DNA of 64,000 bases, taken from contig NZ_SJPF01000005.1 in the NCBI RefSeq assembly GCF_007859755.1, positions 248,001 through 312,000 of the forward strand, written 5' to 3'. Numbering within the stretch: the first letter of the stretch is position 1; each line of letters starts with the position of its first letter. This DNA comes from Blastopirellula retiformator. Lineage in GTDB: Bacteria > Planctomycetota > Planctomycetia > Pirellulales > Pirellulaceae. Positions 11,105 through 53,100 of this stretch are shown piece after piece. The translations under genes and the position numbers were made by a program. The notes below the pieces were generated by a model. The model was not told where the DNA came from. It did not search any database and saw only the letters and a program-made list of their open reading frames with translations.

Positions 11105-11303
11105 GGTTTTGCTCTTCACGTGGGCACGCCTTTCGAGGTAAAACCGAAGAGATTTCGCTCCCAGCGACGTTTTGACCGATACAATCGGCGCCAATTCGTC
11201 GATATATCGGGGAAGTGATGAAGATTAGGCTCGAAAATAGCAAGGATTCGCTAGCACGAGCCGCCGCAGGGCAAACCAACTTCCATCAGCAAAAGGATTT
11301 GCT

Positions 11304-33959: not shown

Positions 33960-34445
33960 ATGACGCTAGCGCAAGACTACGCGTACAGCTCGCTATCGGA
34001 CCGCCCCGCCACCCCGCGAACCTTTCCGCCGAACGAGAACGGAAGCGTCTCGGCCGAAACAGCGCCTGCTCCGGCTCCGGCGCCAACTGGCCCCGATCCG
34101 CTGAATGACGGAACGGCCAAAGATCTCGTTCAACTCTTCAAACTATTGGCGGACGAAACCCGCTTGCGGATTCTCTGCTTCCTGCTGCAAGAGAAAGAAT
34201 TGAATGTTCGCACCCTGTGCGAATTGCTCGGCCAAAGCCAACCGGCCGTCAGTCACCACTTGGCGCTGATGCGGGTAGCGGGACTGGTCGATTCGCGCCG
34301 TGACGGCAAGCACAACTTCTATCGTATTTTGCCCGACCGCGTCGGCGAACTGTTGGAGCTGTTGTTCCAGCAAACTCCTGGCGTCGCCAATAGCGAACTC
34401 CGCGTGCAAGAACACTGCGTACGCTACTTTACCGTATCGCAGTAG
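33960..34445 (+). CDS. ArsR-family transcriptional regulator
   Basis: From ATG 33960 (ribosome site aagga) the protein has 161 residues. A Pro/Ala-rich N-terminus (1-60) precedes a winged helix-turn-helix: LFKLLADETRLRILCFLLQE, then LCELLGQSQPAVSHHLALM and RDGKHNFYRIL. No ELCVCDL-type metal site is seen, so it probably does not sense arsenic-like metals. It is the divergent neighbour of oppA, so regulation of the opp operon is possible but not shown. It ends 17 bp before a MITE-like element. Confidence 0.85.
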   Translation: MTLAQDYAYSSLSDRPATPRTFPPNENGSVSAETAPAPAPAPTGPDPLNDGTAKDLVQLFKLLADETRLRILCFLLQEKELNVRTLCELLGQSQPAVSHHLALMRVAGLVDSRRDGKHNFYRILPDRVGELLELLFQQTPGVANSELRVQEHCVRYFTVSQ

Positions 34446-34466
34446 GTCGGTTTGACTCGCCACTAG

Positions 34467-34615
34467 CTGCCTGTTGAAAAATGCCATCGTGGCATTTTCC
34501 AACCTCGCCAGTCTCAGAGCATAGCTCTTCGCGGCTCGCAAAATAACGACTTACGTCGTTATTTTGGGATCGCGTCCGTGCGATCACGCAGTCCGTCGAG
34601 AAAATCAACGGACTG
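34467..34615 (-). repeat. MITE-like element family 1, copy A
   Basis: 149 bp, flanked by CTAG on both sides (34463-34466, 34616-34619). It is in the opposite orientation to the other two copies. Compared in the repeat's forward orientation it differs from copy C (49997-50145) at 4 positions and from copy B (40896-41044) at 8. It contains five consecutive hairpins. The forward 5' end lies 34 bp after the tlpA-like stop. Confidence 0.92.
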
Positions 34616-34652
34616 CTAGCAGCCAAAGTCGGAGAGGCTGGCCGCGGTCGAT

Positions 34653-35270
34653 TTAACGATGGTTCGCGGCCAGCAACTCGACGACGAGGCTCTCGACGTC
34701 GGCATAAGTGAACGCGTCCTCTTCGGAGGAGACGCTGGAATTGTCAAAGCGTTTGGCGAGCGTGCCATCCTGGGCGTAAACATAAACCGCTGGCGGCGAG
34801 CCGAGTTTCAACTTCTCGAGCATCGTATCGACGTCGTCGCCGGCGAGGACGTTATCAAACGTCGCGCCGAACTTCTCCAGGAACGGTTTGACTTGCGGGA
34901 TGTAGTCGGCGGCCGGTTTGTTCGGCAAGCCGATATAGTCCAGGCTGACGCTCACGCAGACGACTCCTTGGTCGGCGTATTGGCGGTCGAGATCGACCAG
35001 CCCGGGGAATTCTTTCAAGCACGGGGGGCAATCGGTCGCCCAGTAGTCGACCACCACCACCTTGCCCCGCTGGCTCTCGACCAGCATCCGGATCCCCTCG
35101 TAGTCCAGAACGCGGACGGTCACTTCTTTCGGCGGCGCTGCCGCCGCCGGCTTCGGCGCGACGGTCGCTTCGCCCGTATCGGATGGCCCCGGCGCACTTG
35201 GCTTTGCACAGCCGACGGCAAGCAAACCAGGGAGCATGACCGCCAGCGCGATGTGTCGTAGAGGTTTCAC
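34653..35270 (-). CDS. TlpA-like thioredoxin lipoprotein
   Basis: The GTG at 35270 is preferred because it begins the signal peptide (LRHIALAVMLPGLLAVGC, lipidated Cys21) and has a ribosome site (gaagga). A Pro/Ala linker (25-50) is followed by a thioredoxin domain with DYWATDCPPCLKEF (redox Cys81/Cys84), ending around residue 205. TlpA-like proteins reduce periplasmic disulphides or supply cytochrome maturation. It overlaps no neighbour and lies divergent from a SpoU methyltransferase. The substrate is unknown. Confidence 0.9.
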   Translation of the reverse strand: MKPLRHIALAVMLPGLLAVGCAKPSAPGPSDTGEATVAPKPAAAAPPKEVTVRVLDYEGIRMLVESQRGKVVVVDYWATDCPPCLKEFPGLVDLDRQYADQGVVCVSVSLDYIGLPNKPAADYIPQVKPFLEKFGATFDNVLAGDDVDTMLEKLKLGSPPAVYVYAQDGTLAKRFDNSSVSSEEDAFTYADVESLVVELLAANHR

Positions 35271-35350
35271 AGGCAGATCCTTCGCTATCTTTTCGGGATG
35301 GGTGGGTGACACTAGCATAAGGAATTCTCGATTATCGCCCAACTCACCCG

Positions 35351-35857
35351 ATGCAAATGTCTGATTTCGAACATCTCCGGCATAAACCTCCCACGGCCCT
35401 CGACGAACCGCGACAGTTGATCGTCGCCTGCTGCCAATTGCGGAGCAACGTCAATCTGTCACGGATTGTGCGAACCGCGTCGTGCTGCGCCGTCTCGCGG
35501 GTGATCGTCACCGGCAACATGAAGATCGATCCGAAAATCGCCCGGGATGGCGCCGAGCAATTGCCGATTTCACGACATCGCTCGTTGCCGCCGGTGCTGC
35601 GCGATTTGAAGAAAGAAGGATATCGCCTGGTCGGGCTTGAGCAAACAACCAACTCGGTCGACATTCACCACTTCTCATTCGTGCGGAACACGGTGCTGGT
35701 GATCGGCAACGAACGGCAAGGCACGCCCGACGACGTGCTGCGGCTGCTGGACGACGTGGTGGAGATCCCGGTTTACGGCATGCCCTATAGCTTTAACGTG
35801 GCGACCGCAACCTCGATGGCGCTGTACGAGTTTTGCCGTCAGTTTCCGACTGGCTAG
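35351..35857 (+). CDS. TrmH-family (SpoU) RNA methyltransferase
   Basis: 168 residues with SpoU motifs: NVNLSRIVRTA (motif 1), VLVIGNERQGT (motif 2) and IPVYGMPYSFNVATATSMALYEF (motif 3). It is short, with no N-terminal substrate-binding domain. It probably 2'-O-methylates tRNA or rRNA; the exact target is unknown. ATG at 35351 or 35357. Confidence 0.9.
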   Translation: MQMSDFEHLRHKPPTALDEPRQLIVACCQLRSNVNLSRIVRTASCCAVSRVIVTGNMKIDPKIARDGAEQLPISRHRSLPPVLRDLKKEGYRLVGLEQTTNSVDIHHFSFVRNTVLVIGNERQGTPDDVLRLLDDVVEIPVYGMPYSFNVATATSMALYEFCRQFPTG

Positions 35858-35884
35858 TACGCGTTTCGTCGTCTTCAATTTGTA

Positions 35885-35922
35885 GGTTGGGTGCAGCGCA
35901 GCGCTGGCCCAACGATGCGGTC
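35885..35922 (+). repeat. REP-like 38-bp palindrome, copy 2
   Basis: Same 38-bp sequence as the reverse complement of 12335-12372, with one mismatch. Stem core CAGCGC-A-GCGCTG with outer GTTGGG/CCCAAC. It lies after the SpoU gene. Confidence 0.75.
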
Positions 35923-36086
35923 GCAAGCGAATCACATTTCTTGATCGGATGAGAACTGATCGCGATTGCTCCAACGCCCCAACATTTCTTTCTTGCGATT
36001 TCGTGGGGCGAAGACATGCTCTTCTCGCGAAGACGCGATAAGAACATGGCGCCAGGTATTCGGCCGTAAAAGCATGCCACCAAGCT

Positions 36087-37430
36087 TTACGCCCCTTGCA
36101 TTACCTTGGCCGCTTCCTGGCACAGCTCTTCGGTCCGGTCGATGTTCGGGCTTTCGGCGATGATTCGGACGATCGGTTCGGTGTTGCTGCCGCGGATCAA
36201 TAGCCAGGCGTCTTCCCAGGCAAACCGCAGTCCATCCAAGCGGCTTGCGTCCACGGTGGAGAAGTGGGCGACCAGCTTGTCGAGCGACCCGGCCAGTTGC
36301 TCGCGATCGAGCGGCATCGTCGTTTTGAGGATCTCAAACCGCGGGATCGAATCGGTTAGCGTTCCGACCGTCTTGCTAGTGGCCGCCATCGTGTCGAGGA
36401 TCAGCGCCATACCGACAAAGCTGTCGCGAATATAGCCGACGCGTGGATCAATTGGCCCGCCGTTTCCTTCCCCGCCAAAGACCGCCCCTTGGGCGATCAT
36501 CATGTCGGTCACGTTCGCTTCGCCAACGGCCGAGCGAAAGATCGGGGCGCCATGCTTCTTAGCGATCGCTTCATTCATCAAACTGGTGGCGCAATTGATC
36601 ACCACCGGGCCTGGGCGACTGGTCAGGACATGATTTAGGCAAAGTGCGACCGTGTACTCTTCGCCGATGTAGCGCCCGGCCGAATCGATAATCGCCAGGC
36701 GGTCGGCGTCGGGGTCTTGGCAAAAGCCGATGTCGGCGCCCGACTCGACGACTTTAGCGCGAACGCCTTGCAGGTTGGCCTCGGTCGGCTCTGGGGTATG
36801 CAGAAAATTGCCGCTGGCCTGATCGCCGAGGATTTCAAACTCACAGCCGAGCGCTTCGAGAAGCTTTCGCCCCAGCAAACTGCCAGCCCCTTCATTGGAA
36901 TCGAGCAAGACGCGGAAGTTCCGCTTGCGAATCGTGTCGACATCCACGATGGCGAGCACTTTTTCGAGATGCGCCGAAAGCGTATCGTCGCACGGCGAAG
37001 TGGCGCCTAGCTTCTCGTGCGGGGCCCAAGCGGCGGCGCCGCTGCGGTAGGCTTCCAGCACCCGTTCCCCTTGGTTGGCCGGAATAACGCGGCCGTCCTG
37101 CCCCATCAGTTTGATGCCGTTGTACTGCGGCGGATTGTGACTGGCCGAGATCTGCACCGCGCCGCCGCAGCCATATTGGCGGGTCAAGACGCCCACCGTC
37201 GGCGTCGCGGCGATATCGGCCTGGATGACGTCTCGGCCGCAAAAGTTGAGCGTGCCGGCGATCAGCTCGGCCAACGGTTTGCCGCTCGGGCGTCCATCGC
37301 GGGCAATCAAAATCGGGCCCGGGGCCGCCTGTTGAGCAAAGGCGGCGACATATTTGACCGCAATCTCTGGGGTGAGCGATTCCCCCACCACGCCCCGCAA
37401 ACCGGAAACGCTGATGATCGGGTCCTTCAC
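36087..37430 (-). CDS. Phosphoglucosamine mutase / phosphohexomutase (archaeal-like)
   Basis: From the GTG at 37430 (ribosome site aaggaag) the protein has 447 residues. Active-site motifs are clear: SASHNPPQYNG (Ser97 phosphoserine), metal loop DPDADR, sugar loop GGEGNGG and phosphate loop RGSNTEP. Members interconvert hexose 6- and 1-phosphates; the compact size and the GGEGNGG loop resemble archaeal-type phosphoglucosamine or phosphomannomutases rather than bacterial GlmM. Substrate is therefore not certain. It is divergent from a second, PGM2-like phosphohexomutase. An upstream start at 37508 is possible but less supported. Confidence 0.88.
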   Translation of the reverse strand: MKDPIISVSGLRGVVGESLTPEIAVKYVAAFAQQAAPGPILIARDGRPSGKPLAELIAGTLNFCGRDVIQADIAATPTVGVLTRQYGCGGAVQISASHNPPQYNGIKLMGQDGRVIPANQGERVLEAYRSGAAAWAPHEKLGATSPCDDTLSAHLEKVLAIVDVDTIRKRNFRVLLDSNEGAGSLLGRKLLEALGCEFEILGDQASGNFLHTPEPTEANLQGVRAKVVESGADIGFCQDPDADRLAIIDSAGRYIGEEYTVALCLNHVLTSRPGPVVINCATSLMNEAIAKKHGAPIFRSAVGEANVTDMMIAQGAVFGGEGNGGPIDPRVGYIRDSFVGMALILDTMAATSKTVGTLTDSIPRFEILKTTMPLDREQLAGSLDKLVAHFSTVDASRLDGLRFAWEDAWLLIRGSNTEPIVRIIAESPNIDRTEELCQEAAKVMQGA

Positions 37431-37609
37431 GGTTTCTTCCTTGTTGATGGTACGGTCGCGAAAAGGGGCGGCTGTGCGTTCCCGTTCAATGTCCCCGCAG
37501 ACGCGCAATCAAGTCAAGGGCGAACTGTCGATGCCCGATTGATGCTTCTTTACCGTCCCCCGTAAAATTGGGGTCAGAAAATACAGCCGTACTGCTTGAA
37601 GGAGCACTG

Positions 37610-39418
37610 ATGTCGAGCGAAGTCGATTCGTTGTTGAGCCAGGTTCAAGGCGCCGTCGCCGCCGAAAAAGTCACCGCCAGTGCGGCGGAAAACATCCAGA
37701 TCTGGCTCACCCAACCCCGTTACGCGGCTTACGCTTCGCAAGTCGCCGATCTGATCAAGGATGAAAAGTGGCAGGCCCTTGATGACGCGTTCTGGACGGT
37801 GATTCCCTTCGGCACCGGTGGTCGTCGCGGTCGGATGAACCCGGTCGGCTCGAACGCAATCAACGAACGGACCATCGGCGAAAGCGCCCAAGGTCTCGCT
37901 TCGTACGTCAAAGAGACGGTCGAAGGTCCGTTGTCGTGCGGCATCGCCTACGACACCCGGCATCGGTCGCGGGAATTCGCCGAGTTGTGTGCCCGGATCA
38001 TGGTCGCCAACGGCATCAAGGTCTATTTTCTGGACGACTACCGCAGCACGCCGGAACTGTCGTTCCTGGTTCGCTACAAGAAGTGCAGTTGCGGCATCAT
38101 GGTGACCGCCAGCCACAACCCGCCCAGCGACAACGCCGTGAAGGTTTATTGGTCGACCGGCGGTCAGGTTCTACCGCCGCACGACAAGGCGATCATCGAC
38201 CGGGTGATGAACGTCGAAGCGCTGCCGCTGGAGGTGGTCTTTGACGAGGCGGTGGCGAAGGGGGATGTTGAGATCTGCACGGCTGAAGTCGACTCGGCGT
38301 TTATCGACGTCGTGAAGGCTCAAAAGTTCGCCGGCCCGCGCGACTTGAAGCTGATCTACTCGCCGCTGCATGGCGTCGGCGCTTCGGCGGTGATCCCGGC
38401 CCTGGAAGCGGACGGCTTTACCGACATCGAGGTCTACGGTCCGCACGCCGAACCGGACGGCGATTTTCCGAACGTGCCGGGGCATGTATCCAATCCAGAA
38501 AACCCGGTGGTTTTCGATGCGATCATTGACCGAGCCAAGCAGGTTGGCGCCGAATTCGTCATGGCGACCGACCCTGACTGCGATCGCGTCGGCTGCGCGG
38601 CGCCGGTGACTTCCGACCTGCAGGGAGAGTGGCGTACCTTCAACGGCAACCAGATTGGCGCCTTGCTGTGCGATTACGTCCTGAGCAAGAAGAAAGCTGG
38701 CGGCTCGGTCGCGGCCGACAGCTATGTGATCAAGACGCTGGTGACGACCGAAATGGTTCGCCGCATTGCCGACAGCTACGGCGTGAAGACTCACGGCAAC
38801 CTGCTGGTCGGCTTCAAGTACATCGGCGGCACGATGGACGAAGTCGGGCCCGACAATTTCCTATTCGGCTGCGAAGAGTCGCACGGTTACTTGGTTGGGC
38901 AGTACGCTCGCGACAAAGACGCGGCTGTGGCGTCGATGCTGCTGGCTGAACTGGCGGCCGATTGTAAGGCGAACGGCCAGACGTTGCACGAGCGGCTGGA
39001 GTCGCTCTGGTGGCAGCATGGCTACCATGCAGAGCACCTGCTGAACCAGAAGATGGAAGGTTCCGAGGGGATGGCCAACATGAAAAAGCTGATGGCCAAA
39101 TTCCGCGAACAGCCGCCACGGTCGCTGGCCGGGCTGAAGCTGGAGCGCGTCCGCGACTACAAGAATGACGTGATCGTCACCCCCGATGGCGAAAAATCGC
39201 CTCTCGGCGGACCTGCGGGAGACATGGTGATCCTCGACCTGGAGGAAGGGAACTATGTGGCGGTTCGTCCGTCCGGGACCGAGCCGAAGGTGAAGTTCTA
39301 CATGTTCACCTTCGTCGAGCCGGAACAACTGTCCTTGCTCGACATGGCGAAAGAAGCGATGGCCGAGCGGATCGCCGCCCTGGAAAGCGAGCTGAAAGCG
39401 TTCGCTGCGGCGACATAG
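37610..39418 (+). CDS. Phosphoglucomutase/phosphomannomutase, PGM2-like
   Basis: From ATG 37610 (gaagga ribosome site) the protein has 602 residues. It has the PGM2-type layout: IPFGTGGRRGRMNPVG near residue 65, VTASHNPPSDNAVKVYW (Ser168), metal loop DPDCDRVG, sugar loop GCEESHGYLVG and phosphate loop RPSGTEPKVKFY. PGM2-like enzymes act on glucose, ribose or deoxyribose phosphates. It lies head to head with the other phosphohexomutase across 179 bp, suggesting coordinated control of hexose-phosphate metabolism. Confidence 0.9.
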   Translation: MSSEVDSLLSQVQGAVAAEKVTASAAENIQIWLTQPRYAAYASQVADLIKDEKWQALDDAFWTVIPFGTGGRRGRMNPVGSNAINERTIGESAQGLASYVKETVEGPLSCGIAYDTRHRSREFAELCARIMVANGIKVYFLDDYRSTPELSFLVRYKKCSCGIMVTASHNPPSDNAVKVYWSTGGQVLPPHDKAIIDRVMNVEALPLEVVFDEAVAKGDVEICTAEVDSAFIDVVKAQKFAGPRDLKLIYSPLHGVGASAVIPALEADGFTDIEVYGPHAEPDGDFPNVPGHVSNPENPVVFDAIIDRAKQVGAEFVMATDPDCDRVGCAAPVTSDLQGEWRTFNGNQIGALLCDYVLSKKKAGGSVAADSYVIKTLVTTEMVRRIADSYGVKTHGNLLVGFKYIGGTMDEVGPDNFLFGCEESHGYLVGQYARDKDAAVASMLLAELAADCKANGQTLHERLESLWWQHGYHAEHLLNQKMEGSEGMANMKKLMAKFREQPPRSLAGLKLERVRDYKNDVIVTPDGEKSPLGGPAGDMVILDLEEGNYVAVRPSGTEPKVKFYMFTFVEPEQLSLLDMAKEAMAERIAALESELKAFAAAT

Positions 39419-39493
39419 CCGATCCTGCCCTGCCCGAATTCAGTCGACGCTCTACAATGAGGGAGAATTTTTTCTCCCTCATTTTTTGTGCGC

Positions 39494-40870
<1,377 letters not shown>

Positions 40871-40895
40871 CTGGCTGGGAAGCGGTCGCGCTTAG

Positions 40896-41044
40896 CAGTC
40901 CGTTGATTTTCTCAACGGGCTGCGTGATCGCAGGGATGCGATCCCAAAATAGCGACGGAAGTCGTTATTTTGCGAGCCGCGAAGAGCTATGCTCTGAGCC
41001 TGGCGAGGTTGGAAAATGCCACGAGGGCATTTTTCAACAGGCAG
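40896..41044 (+). repeat. MITE-like element family 1, copy B
   Basis: 149 bp, flanked by TTAG on both sides (40892-40895, 41045-41048). It differs from copy C at 6 positions. The right TTAG contains the TAA stop of the minus-strand FKBP gene. Its third hairpin has a GGAA loop, where the other copies have GTAA. Confidence 0.92.
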
Positions 41045-41509
41045 TTAGTGAGCGTGACCGTGCTCGATCTCTTCGGGCGTCGCTTCGCGAACGTCGCGGA
41101 CGACGACGTCAAAATGAAGCGTCATGCCGGCCAGGGGGTGATTACGATCGACAATGGCGACGCCATCCCCCATCTTGGTCACGACGGCGGCGAATTCTCC
41201 TTCGTCTTCCGTTTCCAGGACCAATTCCATGCCGACCTGGACCTGGCTCGGATCTTCAAAGGCGTCGAGGTCGATTTCCATGACGTCGTCTTCGTCATAC
41301 TCGCCGTAGCCTTGATCAGGCGGAACGACAATTTGGAAGATGTCCCCCTTTTTCTTGCCGTCTAGCGCCGACTCCATGCCGGGAATCAGCGCGCCGATTC
41401 CGTGCAGGTAGACTAGCGGATCGCCGCCGCTAGAGGTGTCGATCAGTTCGCCGTCGTCGTCTTTCAAGGTGTAGTCGATGGTGACGACCGAATGTTTGCC
41501 AATTTTCAT
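41045..41509 (-). CDS. slyD: FKBP-type peptidyl-prolyl isomerase, SlyD-like
   Basis: 154 residues with the FKBP fold interrupted by the SlyD-type insert-in-flap domain: VVTIDYTLKDDDGELIDTS, LIPGMESALDGKKKGD, then DVMEIDLDAF and NHPLAGMTLHFDVVV. The C-terminus is HGHAH, shorter than the His-rich tail of E. coli SlyD. It catalyses prolyl isomerisation and has chaperone activity. Its stop codon lies within the TTAG border of a MITE-like element. Confidence 0.93.
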   Translation of the reverse strand: MKIGKHSVVTIDYTLKDDDGELIDTSSGGDPLVYLHGIGALIPGMESALDGKKKGDIFQIVVPPDQGYGEYDEDDVMEIDLDAFEDPSQVQVGMELVLETEDEGEFAAVVTKMGDGVAIVDRNHPLAGMTLHFDVVVRDVREATPEEIEHGHAH

Positions 41510-41768
41510 CTTGCAGCCCTAGTGAGAGAAAGATTGCCTGTAGTCTAAGTTCCCAGGGCCTGTCTAGCTAGTTGCAAAAGTGGGGGAACGACTAATTGCC
41601 GTTTTTCCGCTAGATTCGCGATTTGCGGGTTGTTCAGGCTGTTCGTAGGGGCTTGCGAAAAGATTGTCGAAATGACAGCACTTCTCTTTTCCGTTTGCGG
41701 CGACGGAATCGATAACAAAAGGGCGGCAAACACGGAAAGAGAACGCAATTTCGCCACGGAGGAAATCT

Positions 41769-42908
41769 ATGTCTACTCGTTCAAAATATCACGATTCCAA
41801 CGCTCATAACGCTTCTGGCGATGAACGATCTGGACTCGTCACCTGCGCCCTGGTTCTGCTCGGCATCGCCGCCGGCGCCGCGGGCGGAATGTTCTTCGCT
41901 CAGCGCGACTTTCATCGTGAGATCGCCACGTTGAAGGCCGAAGTGGCTGAGTCGCGGCATGACATTCAAGTCTTGACCGGATACGCAGACGACGCCGGCC
42001 GAACCAATTCGCTGCTGAGCCAACTTCGCCGTCAACGCACCTCGCTGGCCGAAAACCAACTGCTGGCCGGCGAACTGGAGCACACGCTCGCCAAGGTCGA
42101 AGCGGCGGCGCTGCGAATCGACGACGCAAAGGCGGTGTTGGCCCGCATGGAAGACCTGCAAGAGCAAATCGTCAACCAACAGTGCCTGGCCAGCGAACTG
42201 GCGGCCGCCCTCGATCAGCAGAAAACGGTCCAGTACCAGCTGATCGACTTGGCGACCGACCATGATTCGGCCAAGCATTCGCTTGACGCGCTCGCCAGCA
42301 ACCAGTCGCGAATGCAGGAAATCGCCGATTCGCTCGAAGAAAACGAGCTGACGGTCGATCGAGTCGCCAGCGTATTGGACAAGCAGGTTCGTCTGGGAGA
42401 CGACATCGCTTCGGCCCAAGCGGCGCTCGATTTGGCCGCCGAAGTTGCGGCTGACTCGGCCGAACTGCATGGCGCCCTGGCCGATAATCATCGCAACTCA
42501 GAGCGGGCGTTGTCATCGCTCGACGAGATGGTCTGGATTTGCGAATACCTGAACTCGCAATCGCCGCGACTGGCGATCACCCAGGCCAACTTGCGTCAGA
42601 TCGATGAGATCCAGAAAGAAGCGGCGACGCTGAAGGAATCGGTCGGCGGTCTGGTAGAAAACGTCGAAACGATCCGAGGTTTGAATCGCTCGCTCTCTTC
42701 GGTTGTGACGACGACCGTTGGCATGCGAAGCGGTCTGGCCGAAATCATGCTGCTGGAACCGGCCGTCCGTCAGCTGGCGAGCAGCCATCGTGAACTGGAG
42801 CAACTGGTCAACGGAACGCCGCAACTGGACGTGCAATCGCGAGCCCGGCAGCTGATCGCCGAGCATGGCGAACCGAAGGAAACGGTCTACGTCAGCCAGA
42901 AGCCGTAA
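41769..42908 (+). CDS. Membrane-anchored coiled-coil protein
   Basis: 379 residues. A membrane helix (about 24-45, TCALVLLGIAAGAAGGMFFA) follows a short cytoplasmic-type start. The rest (about 48-375) is almost entirely alpha-helical with heptad patterns (LKAEVAESRHDIQVL, LAGELEHTLAKVEAAALRID, LEENELTVDRVASVLDKQ). No enzymatic motif. It may be a structural or tethering protein of the envelope. Unknown family. Confidence 0.78.
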   Translation: MSTRSKYHDSNAHNASGDERSGLVTCALVLLGIAAGAAGGMFFAQRDFHREIATLKAEVAESRHDIQVLTGYADDAGRTNSLLSQLRRQRTSLAENQLLAGELEHTLAKVEAAALRIDDAKAVLARMEDLQEQIVNQQCLASELAAALDQQKTVQYQLIDLATDHDSAKHSLDALASNQSRMQEIADSLEENELTVDRVASVLDKQVRLGDDIASAQAALDLAAEVAADSAELHGALADNHRNSERALSSLDEMVWICEYLNSQSPRLAITQANLRQIDEIQKEAATLKESVGGLVENVETIRGLNRSLSSVVTTTVGMRSGLAEIMLLEPAVRQLASSHRELEQLVNGTPQLDVQSRARQLIAEHGEPKETVYVSQKP

Positions 42909-42916
42909 CGAGAACA

Positions 42917-43020
42917 CCGTGGCAGGAGTCCCGTGGCAAGAGTCCCGTGGCGAGGGCAGTCGCCGTCGGCGCGAAGCCCGTGGCAATAACCTGTTCTCTT
43001 CTCCTCTCTTCCGTGGCAAC
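42917..43020 (+). repeat. Irregular CCGTGGC repeats
   Basis: Five CCGTGGC units (starting 42917, 42931, 42945, 42978 and 43011) with uneven spacing. The first three form a near-direct repeat of about 14 bp (AGTCCCGTGGCAAG type). It lies between two convergent genes. Too irregular for CRISPR. Confidence 0.5.
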
Positions 43021-43120
43021 CTTGGGAGAGGGAACAAGTCAAGCGGAGCGTCGGCGGCTGGGATCAGCGAGACATGATCGCTGGTCCCCAGCGAAAGAGT
43101 CAATCTAACGACAACCTGTT

Positions 43121-44578
43121 TTACAACAGGATGTCGTGGACCGGGTGTTGTTCTTCAACGCCGGTCAATCGCATGTCGAGACCTTGGAACTGCACCGACA
43201 ACTTGCGGTGGTCGATTCCCAGACAATGCAAAATTGTGGCGTTCAGATCATGGATATGAACCGGATTTTGCGTAATGTTGTAGCTGAATTCGTCGGTCTC
43301 GCCGTAGACGAGGCCCGGCTTAATTCCACCGCCGGCCATCCAGACGCTGAAACAGCGGGGGTGATGGTCACGACCGTAGTTCTCCTTCGACAGGCCTCCT
43401 TGGCTGTATACGGTGCGACCGAACTCGCCCCCCCAAACCACTAAGGTGTCGTCGAGCAGACCTCGTTGCTTCAGATCTTGAATCAACGCCCAGGCGGGTT
43501 GGTCGATGTCGCGGCACTGCTTGGGCAAATCGCCGGCGATGTTGCCATGTTGATCCCAACCACGATGGAAAATCTGCACAAACCGGACATCCCGTTCGAT
43601 CATGCGACGCGCCATCAAGCAGCTCGAAGCGAACGTACCGGGCTTGGTCGCCTCGGGGCCGTACATATCCAGCGTATGTTGCGTCTCGCCGCTCATGTCG
43701 GTCAGTTCCGGAACCGACGTCTGCATGCGGAACGCCATTTCGTACTGGGCGATGCGGGATTGCGTCTCGGGATCGCCAATTTCGGCCAACGCTTGTTGGT
43801 TCATGCGGCCGAGCGAGTCGAGCATCTTGCGGCGGATGTCGCCGCTAACGCCGTCGGGATTCGATAAAAAGAGAATCGGGTCTCCTTGGCTGCGGAGCGA
43901 AACCCCTTGGTATTTGCTCGGCAAGAAACCGGAGCCCCACAGACGGTTGTAAAGCGCCTGGGCGTCGCGACGACCGCTCCAACTGGGCGTCATCACGACG
44001 AACGACGGCAAGTCTTTGTTTTCGGAGCCCAAACCGTAGCTGAGCCACGAACCAAGGCTAGGACGCCCCGGCAACTGATTGCCAGTACAAATGTAGGTGA
44101 TCGCTGGATCGTGGTTGATCGCCTCGGTGTGCAGCGACTTGACGATTGCGATATCGTCCACCATTTTCGCGGTGTGGGGCAGCAGCTCGCTGACCCAGGC
44201 GCCTGACTTGCCGTGCTGCGTGAACTTGAACTTGGAGGGAGCGATCGGAAAACGCGTTTGTCCCGAGGTCATCGTCGTCAGACGTTGTCCTTGACGAACC
44301 GATTCGGGCAAGTCTTTGTCGTACCAGTCGCCCATCGTCGGTTTGTAGTCGAGCGTGTCCATCTGGCTCGGGGCGCCGGCCATGAACAGATAAATCGCTC
44401 GCTTCGCCTTGGGGGCGAAGTGAGGTACCGACGGCAAACCGCCGGAAGTCGACAGCGGCGCGGCGGCAGCCCGCTCTGGCAGCATCGAACTCAGTGCGGC
44501 GGTTCCCAGTCCTAAACCGCCAAGCTTAAAAAAGTGGCGGCGCGAGAGGGCTTGCCCATACTCTTGGCGAGGATCCAT
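43121..44578 (-). CDS. DUF1501 exported protein
   Basis: 485 residues. A twin-arginine signal ([10 protein letters not shown], residues 12-21) starts the protein, followed by the DUF1501 core ([51 protein letters not shown]). The fold is related to alkaline phosphatases/sulfatases. These proteins nearly always pair with a DUF1549/DUF1553 protein, as here (the partner starts upstream at 47741 on the same strand, 49 bp gap). Likely exported with its partner. The stop lies in the loop of a CCTGTT/AACAGG hairpin. Confidence 0.93.
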
Positions 44579-44627
44579 ATCTCATCGTTCCTTGAATCGG
44601 ACGGCTGGAAATTTCCGCCGGCGATCG

Positions 44628-47600
44628 CTAGTTCTTGGTAATGACTTCGTCCAGGTTCAGCGCCAAGTTGGCCGCCAAGGTCCATGCGGCGGCTGCGCTG
44701 AGGTCAATGCTCTCATCCCGCTTCACATCGCCGACCGCCACCAGCGCGGCGGCCGCATCGGGATTGGCGGAAAAATGCTCTGCGGCGGCATCCACCAGTT
44801 TCACCACTTCGGCAACTTCCTGCTCGTGCGGTTGGCGGCTCAGGCACAGCTGCAGCATCCACTCGGCCCGCTTTTTCGACGTGTCGCCACCCTCTTTGAT
44901 CGCCCGGGCCCCCAGGGCGCGAGCCGCTTCAACAAACTGCGGGTCGTTCATCAACATCAGGGCCTGCAGCGGCGTATTGGTTCGCTCTCGACGGACGGTG
45001 CACGACTCGCGCGAGGGAGCGTCCAGCGTGCTCATCTCCGGCGGCGGCGAAGTCCGCTTGATGAAGGTGTAGAGCGTGCGGCGATGCACTTTCTCGTGCC
45101 CATCATCCGCTTTGAATTTAGCGGTATTGCTGCTGCCATAACCGACCGCTTCCCACAAACCGGCCGGTTGCGGCGGTTTGACGCTGGCGCCGCCAACCTT
45201 GTCGACCAATAGCCCGCTGACGGTCAAAGCCTGGTCGCGGATCATCTCGGCATCGAGACGATACCGCGGGCCGTGCGAGAAATAGCGGTTGGCCGGATCT
45301 TTGGCGACCTGCTCGGCGGTCATCTTCGACGACTGGCGATAGGTCGACGAGAGGACGACGCGACGCATCATCTTCTTGACGTCCCAGCCATCTTCGATGA
45401 ACTGTGAAGCGAGCCAGTCGAGCAGTTCCGGGTGCGTCGGCGGTTCCCCTTGCAGACCAAAGTCTTCCGAGGTTTTCACCAGGCCGGTACCAAAGACCTG
45501 CTGCCACAGCCGATTGACGGTGACGCGTGAGGTAAGGGGGTGCGACGGATCGACCAGCCACTGGGCTAGGCCCAGCCGATTGACCGGGGCGCCTTCTTTC
45601 ATCGGCGGCAACATCTCTGGCGTCGCTCGCGGCACGACGTCGCCCAACTGATCGTATTCGCCTCGCGCGAGGATGTGCGAGGGAACCGGGGCTTTCTTTT
45701 CTTTGGAAATCAACGTCGTGGGGGACGCCTTGGTAAGGGTGTCGATTGTCTTTTCGTTGTCGGTTACTTTCTTGTGTAGCGGCGCGAATTGGTCGCGGGT
45801 GTCGGAGTAGGCGTACTCCAGGAAATAGTTCTGCAGCTTCGTCTGTTCCGCTTCGCTCCGTTTGCCCGTTTCCTTTTTGGCGATCGCGACAATGTCTTTC
45901 GGCTCAGACGGCTTCTTGGCCGCCGCCAGTTCGGTCGACCACTCGGCCAGTGAGTGATAAACCTTGCCGCGCCCTTCGCGAGTCAGGATACCCGCCTTGT
46001 CCCAATAGACCGTACCGCCCCACTGCGTGAAGGCCCAGCCATTGAGCTTGTCGCCACGTTTCAGATCGAGCAGTTCGACAGGAATTTCCAGTCGCACCCA
46101 CTCTCCGAGTGCCGGAAGATCGCCTTGACGCGTGAGTGAAACAGTTCCATCCGAGCCATACGGAATCAGGTTTTCGCCCCAGTAGACGCGTCGCTCCCAG
46201 TTGCCGGTATTCCACTGCAGCATGATCTCTTTGGGCGGATCGGCCGGGTCGAGATAAACATGGGCGAACAGCACATCGCCCTCGTACACGTCGAGCGGCG
46301 GCTTCGCTTCGGTAAAGAAGTGCTGGTCAAGCGCTTCGCTGGTTCGTTTGGTCGCACGCTTGCCGGAGAGAACCGGTTCGGGCGCCTCAACCCATTGCCA
46401 CGGATAGCTGTTCGATCGCAGTTTGGCGCCTGAGGGCGCATCGTCGTCGATCCACACCAATTCGGTCGGCGGTTGTTCCTCGATCGAGCCAGTAGCCGGT
46501 TCTTGATACTGAATCGCGGCGAGTTGTTCGCGGATCGTCTTCTTCGTCGCGTCCAGCTCTTGCTTCAACGAGGCGATTTTTTGTTGATCGTCGGCCGAGA
46601 TCATGCGAATGGTCGGCGCGTGATCTTTCGCGTTGCCGTCCATCGGGTTGTAGTCAAAGCTGTTGAAGAAGGCGTACATCGAGTAGAAGTCGTTCATCGT
46701 CAGCGGATCGTACTTGTGATCGTGACAGCGGGTGCACTCGAAGGTCAGTCCCATAAAGACCGTTCCGGTAGTGGTGACGCGGTCGATCACGTTCCGCATT
46801 TCGACTTCTTGTTTGATCGATCCCCCTTCGCTGGTCGTCACATGGCAACGATTGAAACCGCTGGCGATCTTTTGCTCTTCGGTCGGGTTTTCCAGCAGGT
46901 CGCCGGCCAGTTGTTCGACCGTGAATTGATCAAACGGTTTGTTGTTGTTGAAAGCTTGAATCACCCAGTCGCGATAGAGCCACATCTCGCGGTAGTTATC
47001 CAGATGCAATCCATGCGTATCGCCAAAGCGGGCGGCGTCAAGCCAGAAGCGGGCCATGTGTTCGCCATAGTGGGGCGAAGCGAGCAAGCGATCGACCACT
47101 TTCTCGTAAGCGTCGGGCGAGTCGTCTTTGACGAACGCTTCGACTTCGGCCATCGTTGGCGGCAAGCCGGTCAGGTCAAACGTGACCCGGCGAATCAGGC
47201 GCTCTTTCGTCGCGACGTCCGATGGCGACATCCCCATCTTCTCGAGTCGGGCCAGCACAAACTGGTCGATGGGGCCGCGCGCCCATTCGGCTTGCTTCGG
47301 AGCGGGCGGCTCCGGCTTCTCCAGGCTTTGGAAGGCCCAGTGTTTTTCAAACTTGGCGCCGGCGGCGATCCACTGGCGAATCTTCTCGACCTCTTCCGGT
47401 TTTAGCGACTTGTTCGTCTCGGGCGGCGGCATTTGCAGCGAAGGATCGGTGCTGACGATCCGTGCGATGATCTCGCTGGCGTCGACGTCGCCGGGGGCAA
47501 TCGGTCGTTCGCCCGAGTCCGCTTCGCCGATGGCGCTCGATTCAACGTCCAGCCGAAAACCACCAGCGCGATGCTCCTCGTCGGGCCCATGGCACGAATA

Positions 47601-47741
47601 GCAATTGTTCGAGAGTAACGGCCGAATATCGGCGCCGAAATCAATCTCGCCCTCGGCAAGTGCGGAACTCGTCCCCAGAAGCGAGGTCAGCACGCCAAGA
47701 ATGATCCATGAGCAAGGAGAGTAAGTCGATAGAAATCTCAT
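44628..47741 (-). CDS. DUF1549/DUF1553 protein with cytochrome c-type domain
   Basis: 1037 residues. It has a signal peptide ([18 protein letters not shown]) and a planctomycete cytochrome C domain with one haem-binding motif CYSCH (Cys47-Cys50-His51). DUF1549 follows (about 140-360, with [20 protein letters not shown]), a middle region, then DUF1553 at the C-terminal end (about 730-960, [20 protein letters not shown] and [20 protein letters not shown]). This architecture is a hallmark of planctomycetes; function is unknown but is thought to involve surface redox or polysaccharide-related processes. It probably forms an operon with the DUF1501 gene. Confidence 0.93.
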
Positions 47742-47974
47742 GCCATAACCTGAGAGGCGAGAGGTCAGAACTAACAGAAACGATCGGCGGGGGGGTGAGT
47801 AGAGGAACTCGCCCTAGTTTTGGTTGGGAGTTTTTGATAGTGGAATTGTATCAAAGGACGCCGCAAACATCGATCATTTGTTTGCGGCGAATCAGCTTCT
47901 GTTGCCGAAAATGGGCATTTTGGCGCAGCAAGACTTCACAAGAAAGCGAGGAAAAAAGGCAGTCCCTTAAAGGG

Positions 47975-49561
47975 TTACGGTGTTTGTGTATTTGCTTCCG
48001 GCGGAGCGACTTTGACGTCGCAGGCTCCTAGCGCACAAACATCGGCGCCTTCGACAAACAGCCGCACATGACATTCGCCGGCGCAGTGGGCTGGCAGTGG
48101 GATGGTCGTTTCGAACGGTCCGGCCGCCAGGTCGATTTCGATGCTATGCCAACAGCGGTCGTTCGCCTGGCGATAGACGCTGGGGAAGTCGGGCAGGCTT
48201 TCGTCGTAATCGGCCCGCAGTTCCGGCTTGAACGTCAGCAGGTCGCGACGACAGACGATCTCGAGCCGACCTTTACCAGCGACCGGAGAGACGCCGCTGA
48301 CCAACAGCGTTTCGCCCGCCGTCGCTTCGGCCGGCGAATTGATTTCAGCCGCTTGGGTACGGGGGAGTTTCAACAGCGGATCACCGATCAAATTAAACAG
48401 CTGCACATGCTCGCGGCGTTCGTCTTTTAGTAGCTCTGGCTTGGGGCTGACGAGCCGCGCAAGCGAATCGAGCAACTTCCGATTGCCTCCCTTGGCGGCG
48501 GCGTCGACCATGTCCCGCTTGGCGTACAGGATCAACTCCCCGAGCGTCTCGCGATTGTTGTGGAAGTATTCTTCCAGCATTTCGGCGCCCATCACCGACA
48601 TCGCGTACGGCATCGTCACGCGCGAACCTGCATAGACCGCGACTGGTCCTCCCTGGCGCCGTAGCATCTCTTCGGCCAGGCAATCATTCGGCTCGTCAAA
48701 CGCGCCGGTGTAGCAGGCCAGGAAGATCGCGATCGGCGAACCGTTTTGGCAGTTCAGCCGACCAACGTCGTTCGCTTGAAAGATCGGGTAGTATCGGCGG
48801 TTGGGCACATGGATGTAGTCCAAGTAGCGTCGCTGACCATGACCAATATAGATCCAGAAGAGGCAGCCGTCGTTCAGCTGGTTAACCGTTTCGTCTTGGA
48901 ACTCGCGCGGGTCAGGGCAGTAGGGACTGCGCCAACTGGCGTAGGCGACTTGGGTTTCAAACGACGAGGGGACTTCGTCGGTCAGGAACTTTTTGGTGAT
49001 TGATTCCATCATCGAATCGGCCAAGAGACCAAACCCGCCGACTCCGGCAACGACGTTTAGTTGACGCCGCCAGGCGCCGGGAGCATCGTCTTGTTCGTAG
49101 GTCAGGATCTTCGCAACGACCGTTTCGAGTTGCTGCGGAGTTCGAACCGACAAGCGGCCGACGGCCACGTCCGGGATTAGGTCGTCATCGATGTCGGCGT
49201 AGTAGTTGTCGGTGGCCAGAGTTGGCTCGGAACCAAAATGAACGTTGACTACCGCGGGCATCTCGTGAGTCGGAACGGTCGGCGAACCAGGCGGCGCGTC
49301 GGCGCCCGGAACATCGCCAACCAACACGACCCACCGCAGGGGGCCCGACTTGGCCGTCTCGCGAATGGCGGCGCGAATCCGCTCTTTGGAACCGGTCTCG
49401 GTAATCAGCCCGATCTGGTGACCTTGCGAAGCGCGATAGTCGAGCCAGGGACGTAGGGCCGGGACCAGCGACTCGGGGCAGACGACCAGCGTATCGGTCG
49501 GCGGTTGCGGCGCGGCGCCGAGCGTCAACGTGGCCAGCAGAGCTGCGATCGCGGCGTGCAT
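47975..49561 (-). CDS. C25 (gingipain-like) cysteine peptidase family protein
   Basis: From ATG 49561 the protein has 528 residues with a short signal peptide (IAALLATLTLGAA). The caspase-like gingipain core is visible: TDNYYADIDDDLIPDVAVGR (about 117-136), the catalytic His in IYIGHGQ (His241) and catalytic Cys in IAIFLACYTGAF (Cys283). A beta-sandwich-like C-terminus follows (about 405-528). It is likely exported. Planctomycetes encode many such exported peptidases. A start at 49612 is possible but would precede the signal. Confidence 0.83.
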   Translation of the reverse strand: MHAAIAALLATLTLGAAPQPPTDTLVVCPESLVPALRPWLDYRASQGHQIGLITETGSKERIRAAIRETAKSGPLRWVVLVGDVPGADAPPGSPTVPTHEMPAVVNVHFGSEPTLATDNYYADIDDDLIPDVAVGRLSVRTPQQLETVVAKILTYEQDDAPGAWRRQLNVVAGVGGFGLLADSMMESITKKFLTDEVPSSFETQVAYASWRSPYCPDPREFQDETVNQLNDGCLFWIYIGHGQRRYLDYIHVPNRRYYPIFQANDVGRLNCQNGSPIAIFLACYTGAFDEPNDCLAEEMLRRQGGPVAVYAGSRVTMPYAMSVMGAEMLEEYFHNNRETLGELILYAKRDMVDAAAKGGNRKLLDSLARLVSPKPELLKDERREHVQLFNLIGDPLLKLPRTQAAEINSPAEATAGETLLVSGVSPVAGKGRLEIVCRRDLLTFKPELRADYDESLPDFPSVYRQANDRCWHSIEIDLAAGPFETTIPLPAHCAGECHVRLFVEGADVCALGACDVKVAPPEANTQTP

Positions 49562-49769
49562 CGGTTCCTCGGACGTATGCAGGAGCGGAAAGCGGCGTCT
49601 TCGGCCGATCATTGCCGGACGCTAAGGGGGGAGGAAGTGTACTCGCCGGGGCGGTCGGCGGGCAAGGCGCATCTTTCCCTCAACTTAGACGATTGTTACC
49701 GCCATAACGATCTTACCAGCGGAAAATGGGAGAAGTTGCGGCCCGATGCGGGATCGTGCGGCGGATCGC

Positions 49770-49797
49770 TTGCCGCGGGGCCGCCGGACGTTATATT
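49770..49797 (+). promoter_or_regulatory. Promoter of tRNA-Gly
   Basis: TTGCCG (49770-49775), 16-bp spacer, TATATT (49792-49797), and the tRNA 5' end 23 bp later. The sequence matches a sigma-70-like promoter. Confidence 0.55.
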
Positions 49798-49819
49798 AAC
49801 ACGGTGCGTCAGAATTTAC

Positions 49820-49890
49820 GCGGGTGTAGCTCAATGGTAGAGCCCTTGCTTCCCAAGCAAGTTACGAGGGTTCGATTCCCTTCACCCGCT
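49820..49890 (+). tRNA. tRNA-Gly (anticodon CCC)
   Basis: 71 bp. The acceptor stem GCGGGTG/CACCCGC, D-arm GCTC/GAGC, anticodon stem CTTGC/GCAAG with the loop TTCCCAA (anticodon CCC), and T-arm GTTCGATTC are all in place. U73 is the discriminator, as expected for tRNA-Gly. CCA is not encoded. Confidence 0.97.
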
Positions 49891-49996
49891 CTTTGCTAAG
49901 AGCCGGTTGGTCTTTCCACCAGGAAAGAACGAGCCGGCTTTTGGCGGTTCTTGGCCGAATCGTCGCTAGACATGCTAGCAGCGGCCGATTTCCTAG

Positions 49997-50145
49997 CAGT
50001 CCGTTGATTTTCTCGACGGACTGCGTGATCGCACGGATGCGATCCCAAAATAACGACGTAAGTCGTTATTTTGCGAGCCGCGAAGAGCTATGCTCTGAGC
50101 CTGGCGAGGTTGAAAAATGCCACGAGGGCATTTTTCAACAGGCAG
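49997..50145 (+). repeat. MITE-like element family 1, copy C
   Basis: 149 bp, flanked by CTAG on both sides (49993-49996, 50146-50149). It lies between tRNA-Gly and putA, which face each other. The right CTAG contains the TAG stop of putA. Five hairpins in order: GCAGTCCGT-type stem, GATCGCA/TGCGATC, an 11-bp stem with GTAA loop, AGAGC/GCTCT, and a 13-bp stem near the end. Confidence 0.92.
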
Positions 50146-53100
50146 CTAGGCGTGATCCTCTGGCAATTGGATGATCTGCCCGTACCGGTGCAGGGTGCGG
50201 GTGATCGCCTGTTCTCGCAGCCAATAGCGTAGCTCGACATAGCCATTGGCGGTCAACGGCGCGTCGATCCAATTGAGGCCTGCCTCGTGCATGGCCGCGA
50301 GGACCGTGTCATTCACTTCGCCAACGGTTCGGAGGAACTCGAAACGCTGACCCTCTCGCGATAGGCGGGCGATGAAGTCGGCGTCCGGCTCCTGCGAAGC
50401 GATGCTGATTTCGAGCGGCGCGCCGGTAATCTGTGCGGCCAGCTTGGCCCGCGCAATGGTCGCTTCGTCCTCCGATGGCAATCGCAGTAGTACGCCGCCG
50501 GCCGGGCGATAGCGAAAGACGTTGCTTTCGCTTTCCAGGTGCGACGGATCGTGCTCCTGGGAGAAATACTCGTCCCACGCAGTTTGGTAGCTCGTCTCGA
50601 CGATGGCGAGCGGCGTATCCGTCTGCTCGTCCGACCAGCGGGCGAACAGGGAAACATAGTTAGGGCCGCCCGCTTTGCTGCCGGGGCCGATCGACGACTT
50701 CTTCCAACCGCCAAACGGCTGACGCTGCACAATCGCGCCGGTCGTGGGGCGATTGACGTAGAGGTTGCCAGCCTGAACCGACTCGGTCCATTGCTCTTGT
50801 TCGCGCCGGTCGAGCGTATGGATGCCGGCGGTCAGGCCAAAGTCGACATCGTTTTGCCAGGCAATCGCCTGGTCGAGGTTCTCCGCCCGCATCAATCCCA
50901 AGACGGGGCCAAAGCACTCGGTCTTATGAAACCACGATCCCGGCTTCACGCCCAGCCGAATCCCCGGTGACCACAAGCAGGGATCGTCGGCCGACGGTTG
51001 GGGCCGCAGCAGCCAACTCTCTCCCACTTCAAGTTGCGTTAGCGCTCGCAACAGGTTCGGTTCCGGCTCGCGGATGACCGGCGTCACAACGCTGGTCCGG
51101 TCGGTGCTGGGGCCGACCTGCAGCGAGGCGGCGGCGTCAAGCAGCTGCCGCTGGAAGATCGGATCGTCGTAAACTTCCGCTTCAATGATCGCCAGGCTGG
51201 CGGCGCTGCACTTTTGCCCGGCATGGCGAAAGGCCGACTGCACCAGGTCTTTGACCGCCAGTTCGCGATCGGCCTGGGCGGTAATCACCAGCGCGTTCTT
51301 GCCGCTCGTTTCGGCATACAGCCGCAGCGAGGGACGCCATGATTGGAACATCCGGGCCGTTTGGTAGGCGCCGGTCAGCACGACGGCGCTCACGCGCGGG
51401 TCGGTGATCAGCCGCTTGCCCGTTTCGCCATCGGCACACGGATAGAACTGCAGCACGTCGCGGGGAACGCCAGCTTCCCAAAGCTGCTGCACCAATCGCC
51501 AAGCGATATCGGTCGTCTCGGGCGCCGGCTTCAGCAGCACCGCGTTGCCGGCCATCAGCGCCGCCAACACGCCCCCGCACGGAATCGCATAGGGGAAGTT
51601 CCATGGCGGCGTGATCACGACGACTCCCAGCGCTTGGCTGGCGATGCCAGGATGTTGCGGAAAATGTTCGGCATAATAGCGAGCGAAGTCGATCGCTTCG
51701 GAGACTTCGGCGTCGGCCTCGGCAATCGCTTTCTTGGCGGTCTGCTGCATTTCGGCGATCGACTCGAAGCGATGCTCCTGCATCACTTCCGCCGCATGAC
51801 GCAAAATCTCGGCACGATGCGAAATCGATTCAGCTGACCAACGGGCGCCGGCGGCGACCGCCGTTTCGAGCGTCGCGTCTAAATCTTCCGCCTCCGGCGG
51901 CAGCGCCGGCGACCAGTTGGCGATCGCCTCGTCAAGCTGCGTGCGGGTTGCAAGTTGCGTCCAGTCGCTATCGGCCTGATTCATGAAGTGGGCGGCGCGA
52001 TTGGGATCGGGGCAGGGGAGTTGGCGTCGCGACAAACTGGTGACATCACGGCGATGCTCCCAACCTTCGCGGAACCGCCGCTCTTGCTCTTTCCACGCAG
52101 CGGAATCCGGCGTCAGGCCGAACAAATCGTGCAGAAAGTTTTGCGGCGACGTGTTCTCGTCCAACCGCCGCACCAGGTAGGCCATCGCACTTTGGAAGTC
52201 CTTCTCTTGCACCGCCGGAGCGTAAAGGAGCAGCCCGCCTGCTTGCTCTTTCACGATCCGGGCCTGGTGATTGGCCATGCCTTCCAGCATTTCGATTTCG
52301 ACAGCGTCGCTAGTCCCAAGCTCTTCACGCAGCGTCAACGCGAGCGCCACGTCAAACAAGTTGTGCGATGCAACGCCAACCCGCAGCACCGCGGCATTCT
52401 CGGGCCGCACGCAGAACTCCATCATCCGGCGATAGTTGGCGTCGGTTTCGGCTTTGGTGCGATAGGGCGCCGAGTGCCAGCCGTGCAGCTCCGCTTCGAC
52501 ATCTTCCATCGCCATGTTGGCGCCTTTGACCAGGCGAACCTTGACCTGGGCGCCGCCGGCGGCAACTCGTTCTTGGGCCCATGCGGCCAATTCCTGCAGT
52601 GCGTTCCATGAGTCGGGAATGTAGGCCTGCAGCACGATGCCGGCCGAATAGTGCAGGAACTCCGGCTCCGCCAAGACTTGCTGAAACGCTTCGAGCGTCA
52701 GACGCAGATCGCGATATTCTTCCATGTCGAGATTGACGAATTTGCCATCTGGCGCCGCCGCGCGATAGATAACTCGCAGGCGGTCTTTGATCGCCGTCAA
52801 CGTCTGATCGTAGGCGGTCAAGTTGATCTGGCTGAAGACGGCCGAGATCTTGACCGACAAGTAGTTCACCTCGGGCTGCTGCAGATACTCGAGGGCAATC
52901 CGCAGACGATTCTGGGCTTCTTCCTCTCCCAAAACCGCTTCGCCCAGGTGATTGAGGTTGATCGAGAAACCTTGCGAGACGCGACCACGCACATACCGGC
53001 GCAGCTCGTCCATCTCGCCGTTCAGGATGACGTTGGACGAGTCGGCTCGCATCCGAGCGGCGATCAGCGGCATCACGATCTGCGGAGCGACGACGCTGGC

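Follow-up and report, generated by a model that had tools for sequence, protein, structure and literature searches.

The 64,000-nucleotide stretch of the Blastopirellula retiformator genome assembly analysed here (the window; the assembly, of 6.2 Mb, is designated G000, its contigs C and the individual loci studied in this and other genomes L) contains three copies of a short repeat, which we interpret as a miniature inverted-repeat transposable element (MITE). As an earlier, sequence-only reading of the same stretch had proposed, the copies are found at positions 34467–34615 (copy A, minus strand), 40896–41044 (copy B, plus strand) and 49997–50145 (copy C, plus strand), each is exactly 149 bp long, and pairwise comparison shows 8, 4 and 6 differences between them. 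Copies B and C were delimited by sequence and covariance model, and copy A, itself part of the training set of that model, scores 161.8 bits. The flanks likewise vary together as claimed, with CTAG at 34463–34466 and 34616–34619 on the low- and high-coordinate sides of copy A, TTAG at 40892–40895 and 41045–41048 to the left and right of copy B, and CTAG at 49993–49996 and 50146–50149 to the left and right of copy C (for A and C by flank comparison), and the inverted terminal repeats, CAGTCCGTTGA and CTGCCTGTTGA, indeed match at 8/11 positions; closer terminal inverted repeats than these occur in relatives, for example in the copies of genome G037. Copies B and C sit on stop codons, the minus-strand open reading frames (ORFs) 41045–41509 and 50146–53442 ending at the element, such that the right-hand duplication of B holds the stop codon of the former and that of C the stop codon (CTA, being TAG on the minus strand) of the latter, and for copy A the insertion is some 20 bp past the end of a gene.

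The element is built of hairpins almost from end to end. In copy B, RNA folding yields five consecutive hairpins over positions 1–143 at −73.1 kcal/mol (shuffles −45.9, standard deviation 4.0; z −6.8), and DNA folding likewise yields five (z −8.0). On the plus strand these are H1 (40896–40922), in which the left terminal repeat is set opposite its own inverted copy, H2 (40926–40943), H3 (40945–40972), H4 (40973–41007) and H5 (41008–41038); H1 and H2 are assigned from the fold, with the H2 region below −4 kcal/mol in 50 of the 55 distinct rows of the alignment described below, and H3 to H5 from both the fold and the paired changes. The inner arm of H1 and the right end of the element are direct repeats. 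Solo 27-bp copies of H1 with YTAR-like bases on both sides occur at C1:439684, C2:43844 and C2:150448 of G000, and we infer that they arose by deletion between the H1 inner arm and the right end; a solo 43-bp copy of H5, again between YTAR-like bases, is found at about 1583–1625 of L352. The absence of coding sequence, also claimed by the sequence-only reading, holds for four of the six frames, which are stopped in 66–73 of 73 copies, but not for the other two, which are mostly open: the second forward frame is stop-free in 66 and stopped in only 7 copies, the first reverse frame stop-free in 69 and stopped in only 4. In an element so rich in palindromes, open stretches of about 49 codons do not speak for a gene, though they do not bear out its absence either; no protein function was seen, and we take them to be a probable by-product of the palindromes. 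Given these stop-free frames, in-frame insertions could be read through.

On the scale of the whole genome, the pattern CAGTCCGTTGATTTT, with at most two mismatches, gives 348 matches against 5 for the reversed control, so that the repeat family is not due to chance. The part of the genome that was fully read (2.06 Mb, comprising contig C1, the first 220 kb of C2 and the window) holds 111 copies or pieces, which extrapolates to about 330 in 6.2 Mb, and the family size can be put at roughly 330–350 copies or pieces. Both ends are present there in 82 copies; 73 of these measure exactly 149 bp, a length in keeping with a MITE, and 61 have identical 4-bp flanks, against a random-4-mer expectation of about 0.3 (82/256); the covariation of the flanks thus extends to further copies. 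All 61 duplications are NTAR (CTAG 21, TTAG 19, CTAA 11, ATAG 4, TTAA 3, GTAG 2 and ATAA 1), and with 54 of them YTAR the proposed 4-bp target of this type is supported.

Comparison with three sampled sister genomes of the same genus (G001, G002 and G003) gave a clean empty junction at one of the three window sites. Site B in G001 and G002 has a single TTAG and no element, which is what insertion by a staggered cut predicts. The other two sites did not yield such a junction: G002 and G003 are without the element at site A, with unconserved junction bases from which a single CTAG cannot be read off, and at site C the right flank is kept in G002 from the stop codon on, with about 1.25 kb of other sequence between the flanks. 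The sister genomes contain at least 2, 7 and 5 matches, respectively, by BLAST (14 of 16–20 candidates scored per genome) and at least 4, 6 and 5 by covariance model (12 scored per genome), and since these are few against the 348 pattern matches in G000, most copies probably arose after the split from the sister species. The mean pairwise divergence between copies is 5.2%, and there are only few changes that are confined to small numbers of copies (121 among 72 copies, one of 73 with 98 differences being left out of this count, though part of the mean), a pattern that fits recent amplification of several subfamilies. On these observations it is a real non-autonomous insertion element.

One question then is which transposase moves it. 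The reading that we consider very probable is that the MITE is mobilised in trans by an IS1182-like transposase, inserts at YTAR, comes to rest usually at the 3' ends of genes, was amplified recently, and that its source has been lost or is missing. Judging from the common ends, the terminal repeats CAGTCCGTTGA... and CTGCCTGTTGA... would be recognised and cut in trans by an IS1182-like DDE transposase; the flanks and the one clean empty site show that insertion proceeds through a staggered cut of 4 bp, for the most part at YTAR, and duplicates YTAR on both sides; the few and diverged copies in the three sister species suggest that amplification in this lineage followed the split from them; and the transposase source would by now be lost from, or missing in, the assembly, in which remnants are seen.

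The elements sharing these ends are related to L118, a 5'-truncated insertion sequence (IS) copy in G000, the 3' part of which ends in CAGCCCGTTGA followed by CTAG, and in which PF05598, PF01609 and PF13751 all exceed their cut-offs, giving the combination of DUF772 and DDE domains. Among 32 of 45 L118-related loci tested for their ends (13 partial or contig-edge loci being left out), both ends were of the MITE type in 22, comprising 14 with identical YTAR flanks and 8 with differing flanks, while 7 loci had one such end and 3 none; of the 14, six carry CAGnCYGTTG ends and eight CAGnCCGTGG ends. Loci under planctomycete names form the largest group (17/45), followed by those under acidobacterial ones. 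The closest end belongs to L300, an element of Botrimarina colliarenosi Pla108 with a 445-amino-acid ORF and CTAA on both flanks, which equals the MITE left end at 15/16 bases with its left end and at 13/16 with its right end; as a yardstick, a sample of the genome cleared of the 61 clean copies, though not of the 50 other copies or pieces, contains 13,801 16-mers adjoining YTAR, of which 28 agree with the MITE left end at no fewer than 14 bases. For the MITE right end, L306, L295 and L235 reach 13/16. A 1,069-bp element with broken frames and CTAG on both sides is present in G037, and a left-end-like remnant, recognised by its end alone, at C4:293804 of G000. The full-length IS with the same termini that the sequence-only reading had called for is represented by IS1182-like elements in other genomes, but by remnants only in G000; in keeping with its statement that the source transposase is not in the window, none with these ends was found there.

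Several observations weigh against this reading. Identical flanks are lacking in 21 of the 82 both-ended copies, several of them with YTAR-like bases on both sides, and the MITE right end matches the two ends of L300 at only 9/16 and 10/16 bases. Altogether only about 11–15 terminal bases are common to the MITE and the IS1182-like elements (the ends being compared, the inner 120 bp aside). NF033551, the IS1182 model of NCBIfam, is the best-scoring family, yet its 270-bit equivalog cut-off is not reached by the truncated L118 (163.2), L300 (195.6) or L306 (190.5), and we therefore write IS1182-like and not IS1182. Finally, no intact transposase with MITE ends was found in G000, where PF05598 and PF13751 each match two genes, the truncated L118 and L116 with its other ends, and where a search for MITE-type ends around the 23 PF01609 loci yielded MITE copies, the nested IS4-family element (see below), L118 and, next to L102 and L105, fragments with a single end.

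The sequence-only reading had inclined towards an IS5 type of transposase. YTAR duplication is typical of IS5, an ORF in genome G039 (L245) that looks IS5-like by eye ends with CAGCCCGTTGAACTAG and CTAA, and IS5 models give scores for the L118-type transposase too, albeit weaker than those of IS1182 and below cut-off. Against these stand the 0 matches of PF13586 (DDE_Tnp_1_2) in G000, the fact that L245 is seen at one end only, and the IS1182-like group, which shows both ends together with the duplication; the elements sharing the ends score best as IS1182, the IS5 origin as originally worded is unsupported, and we hold a source in the IS5 group to be quite unlikely. The second IS1182-like gene of G000, in L116 (G000:C4:7013-10522), was rejected as source because its ends, TTGAGGCTGTGAGTTT, differ; this element (680–2213) lies inside a larger inverted repeat (TCGCGTGGCAAC...), a setting reminiscent of the stem-loop targets of IS1272. 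L101–L110 were similarly rejected, belonging by DNA alignment to a different family and lacking MITE ends as a pair (L101 is PF13808 plus PF01609).

A parent could also be sought in the 1,709-bp copies bounded by MITE sequence, of which the MITE would be an internal deletion derivative. They share the outer ends and the YTAR flanks, and their first 134 bp are identical to the MITE at 131/134 positions. The interior, however, possesses terminal repeats of its own (CAATACYGTTCGGCACGCC) adjoining a 9-bp duplication (CCACGAGGG; with one mismatch between its sides in L112), a copy of the same IS4-family element stands outside any MITE in L113, with GGACGGGGG on both sides, the orientation of the insert in the MITE is opposite between L114 and L122, and the insert transposase is of the IS4 family, over the NCBIfam cut-off (216.9 vs 115 bits). 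We consequently rejected the full-length parent, which is very improbable indeed, in favour of an IS4-family element nested in the last hairpin of the MITE. Six IS4-family copies were recovered in G000 via PF01609, four with MITE sequence on both sides, one on a single side and one on neither, and broken pieces of a further copy are present in L135. The 1.55-kb element occupies the H5 loop region in both orientations (L112, L114, L115, L121 and L122), and H5 is, on the evidence of these copies, a hot spot for this second element.

Insertion into YTAR has a particular consequence for genes. Since YTAR reads as YTAR on the opposite strand as well and includes TAG or TAA, a gene hit at its stop codon still has one after the insertion, and 29 of the 61 clean insertions are on a stop codon, 2 being inside genes (genes were called with a simple script of our own). 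With these 2 left out, the 59 non-coding sites divide into stop and other as 29:30 against a genome background of 621:2,808 (odds ratio 4.4, p 8e-8), this background consisting of YTAR only, whereas 7/61 duplications are ATAG, GTAG or ATAA. The excess is seen in codirectional gaps (21:11 vs 419:1,417, p 4e-7) and absent from convergent gaps (8:13 vs 202:459, p 0.48). When the comparison is confined to YTAR sites at most 30 bp from a gene 3' end, stops show no excess (29:9 vs 619:246, p 0.59); within 60 bp (29:9 vs 619:448, p 0.029) and 150 bp (29:19 vs 619:898, p 0.007) there is some, which falls to p 0.14 and 0.076, respectively, once sites near a 5' end are removed. Given the lack of excess within 30 bp of 3' ends, we claim no special recognition of stop codons, although a mild one is possible. 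The stop-codon sites are largely explained by YTAR targeting together with tolerance near gene ends, the simplest reading being that a YTAR found at the end of a gene is in most cases its stop codon and that copies inserted at other places are lost more often; gene 3' ends would become the usual resting place through selection acting against insertions within genes or promoters. A palindromic target of this kind lets the element multiply into the hundreds while doing genes little harm. Stop codon use in the fully read part, with the same gene caller, is TAA 670, TAG 635 and TGA 242, a share of TAG that looks unusually common.

The hairpin array itself recurs in other genomes of the order. An order-wide covariance scan of 246 sampled genomes (at most 12 candidates scored per genome, with stricter filters) found matches in at least 37 of them, belonging to nine families, and a later covariance-model search covered 62 chosen sources. 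An alignment of 66 matches (55 distinct rows, 21 genomes), which is fitted to the structure and includes the training copies, shows pair-preserving changes on both sides in 28/44 pairs, against 11.5 in shuffles, none of 500 being as high, and at most 15 of 44 in slid controls. An earlier MAFFT alignment of 26 sequences, from which the structure was derived, gave 12/44 pairs against 6.3. As far as these alignments tell, the hairpin array has been maintained by numerous paired changes in different families of the order.

Such conservation raises the question whether the element is a structured RNA, or a regulatory repeat kept by the host at gene 3' ends, for which mobility would be only the means of spread. 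Its fold exceeds the shuffles by far as RNA, but it is equally exceptional as DNA, and the paired changes, beyond any of the 500 shuffles, come from an alignment fitted to the structure and containing the training copies; correction of palindromes during replication can also produce paired changes. The balance of G-U and A-C pairs is similarly two-sided. At the level of the majority in each of the 21 genomes, G-U exceeds A-C (37 vs 15; without one pair 31 vs 14, p 0.016), which hints, as a lead only, that the transcript of the given strand is under selection; yet that one pair provides 6 of the 37 G-U, the covariance model itself favours G-U, a sign test by pair gives 17 vs 7 (p 0.064), and fresh changes in G000 are without such bias (15 G-U, 18 A-C). 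Private changes are fewer in stems than in loops (75/7,776 vs 46/2,952, p 0.014). On the other hand, the copies on stop codons are oriented 11 along and 18 against the direction of the gene (p 0.26), presence among the sampled genomes is patchy, and a terminator scan left all five hairpins uncalled with a total equal to that of shuffles. We therefore regard this explanation as unlikely, and assign the same low probability to its more specific form, in which the element would be a mobile structured RNA, its five hairpins maintained in different families of the order by selection on the transcript of one strand, and transposition would bring it to gene stop codons, where it would serve as a ready-made 3' untranslated region. 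A terminator role was rejected, the scan of 34000–50600 giving 20 sites against 19.0 in shuffles, one minor site overlapping the left end of copy A; and at the Rfam gathering score the window contains only a tRNA, the best sub-threshold match over copy B having an E of 0.48.

How, then, does this MITE compare with known repeats? REP/REPIN repeats comprise a 20–40 bp palindrome with a tag tetranucleotide and a RAYT transposase; the length of 149 bp and the duplicated YTAR argue against them. ERIC is, like this element, a small conserved intergenic hairpin repeat present in several taxa, the differences here being the 4-bp YTAR duplication and ends that match a known IS group. The likeness to ERIC extends to occurrence in tens to hundreds of copies (PMC10969869), and since that review reports 711 ERIC copies in Photorhabdus luminescens (PMC10969869), the copy number found here is high but no record. 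Other bacterial MITEs (Correia, Chunjie and QMITE2, PMC10969869, and also MITEAba12) are likewise short, with terminal inverted repeats, target duplications and stable stem-loops, and QMITE2 is itself described there as a target of IS1111 (PMC10969869); the present element differs from bacterial MITEs generally in its end-to-end array of five hairpins and in the paired changes across families of the order.

The likeness to the IS1182 family rests on the DUF772 plus DDE transposase of the relatives found here, the difference being that the MITE has no transposase. For ISPse1, of this family, a table in PMC3281130 gives a value of 4, which we take to be the duplication length. Some IS1182 members target palindromes, according to Siguier et al. 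as given in the IS1272 paper (PMC5678879), and CTAG is palindromic; IS1272 itself is reported to replace stem-loops, leaving no duplication (PMC5678879). The MITE family is genuine, abundant and ordinary in kind, and the conserved hairpin array is the point of interest. It provides a well-resolved bacterial case, with copy number, target, likely source group, an empty site in sister genomes and a second IS landing in a hairpin, and it makes testable whether the hairpins of a high-copy repeat are kept for mobility, for an RNA function or by replication-based correction of palindromes.

A plasmid comparison gave no match for the element, and literature searches (open-licence full texts, in which sequences are not searchable) gave no title naming it among the papers listed. 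Draft contigs of G039 (L241, L244, L247 and L248) break near ends of the CAGCCCGTTGAAAAA form or within MITE copies, so that the copies counted in draft relatives may be too few. One MITE copy, cut at the locus end and preceded by CTAG, is present at 11121–11262 of a viral contig from IMG/VR (L354, IMGVR_UViG_2891333991_000001). Another dispersed family is represented in the window at 36005–36056 by a repeat of about 45–52 bp, which is found, mostly at 90–98% identity, in many places in the three sister genomes.

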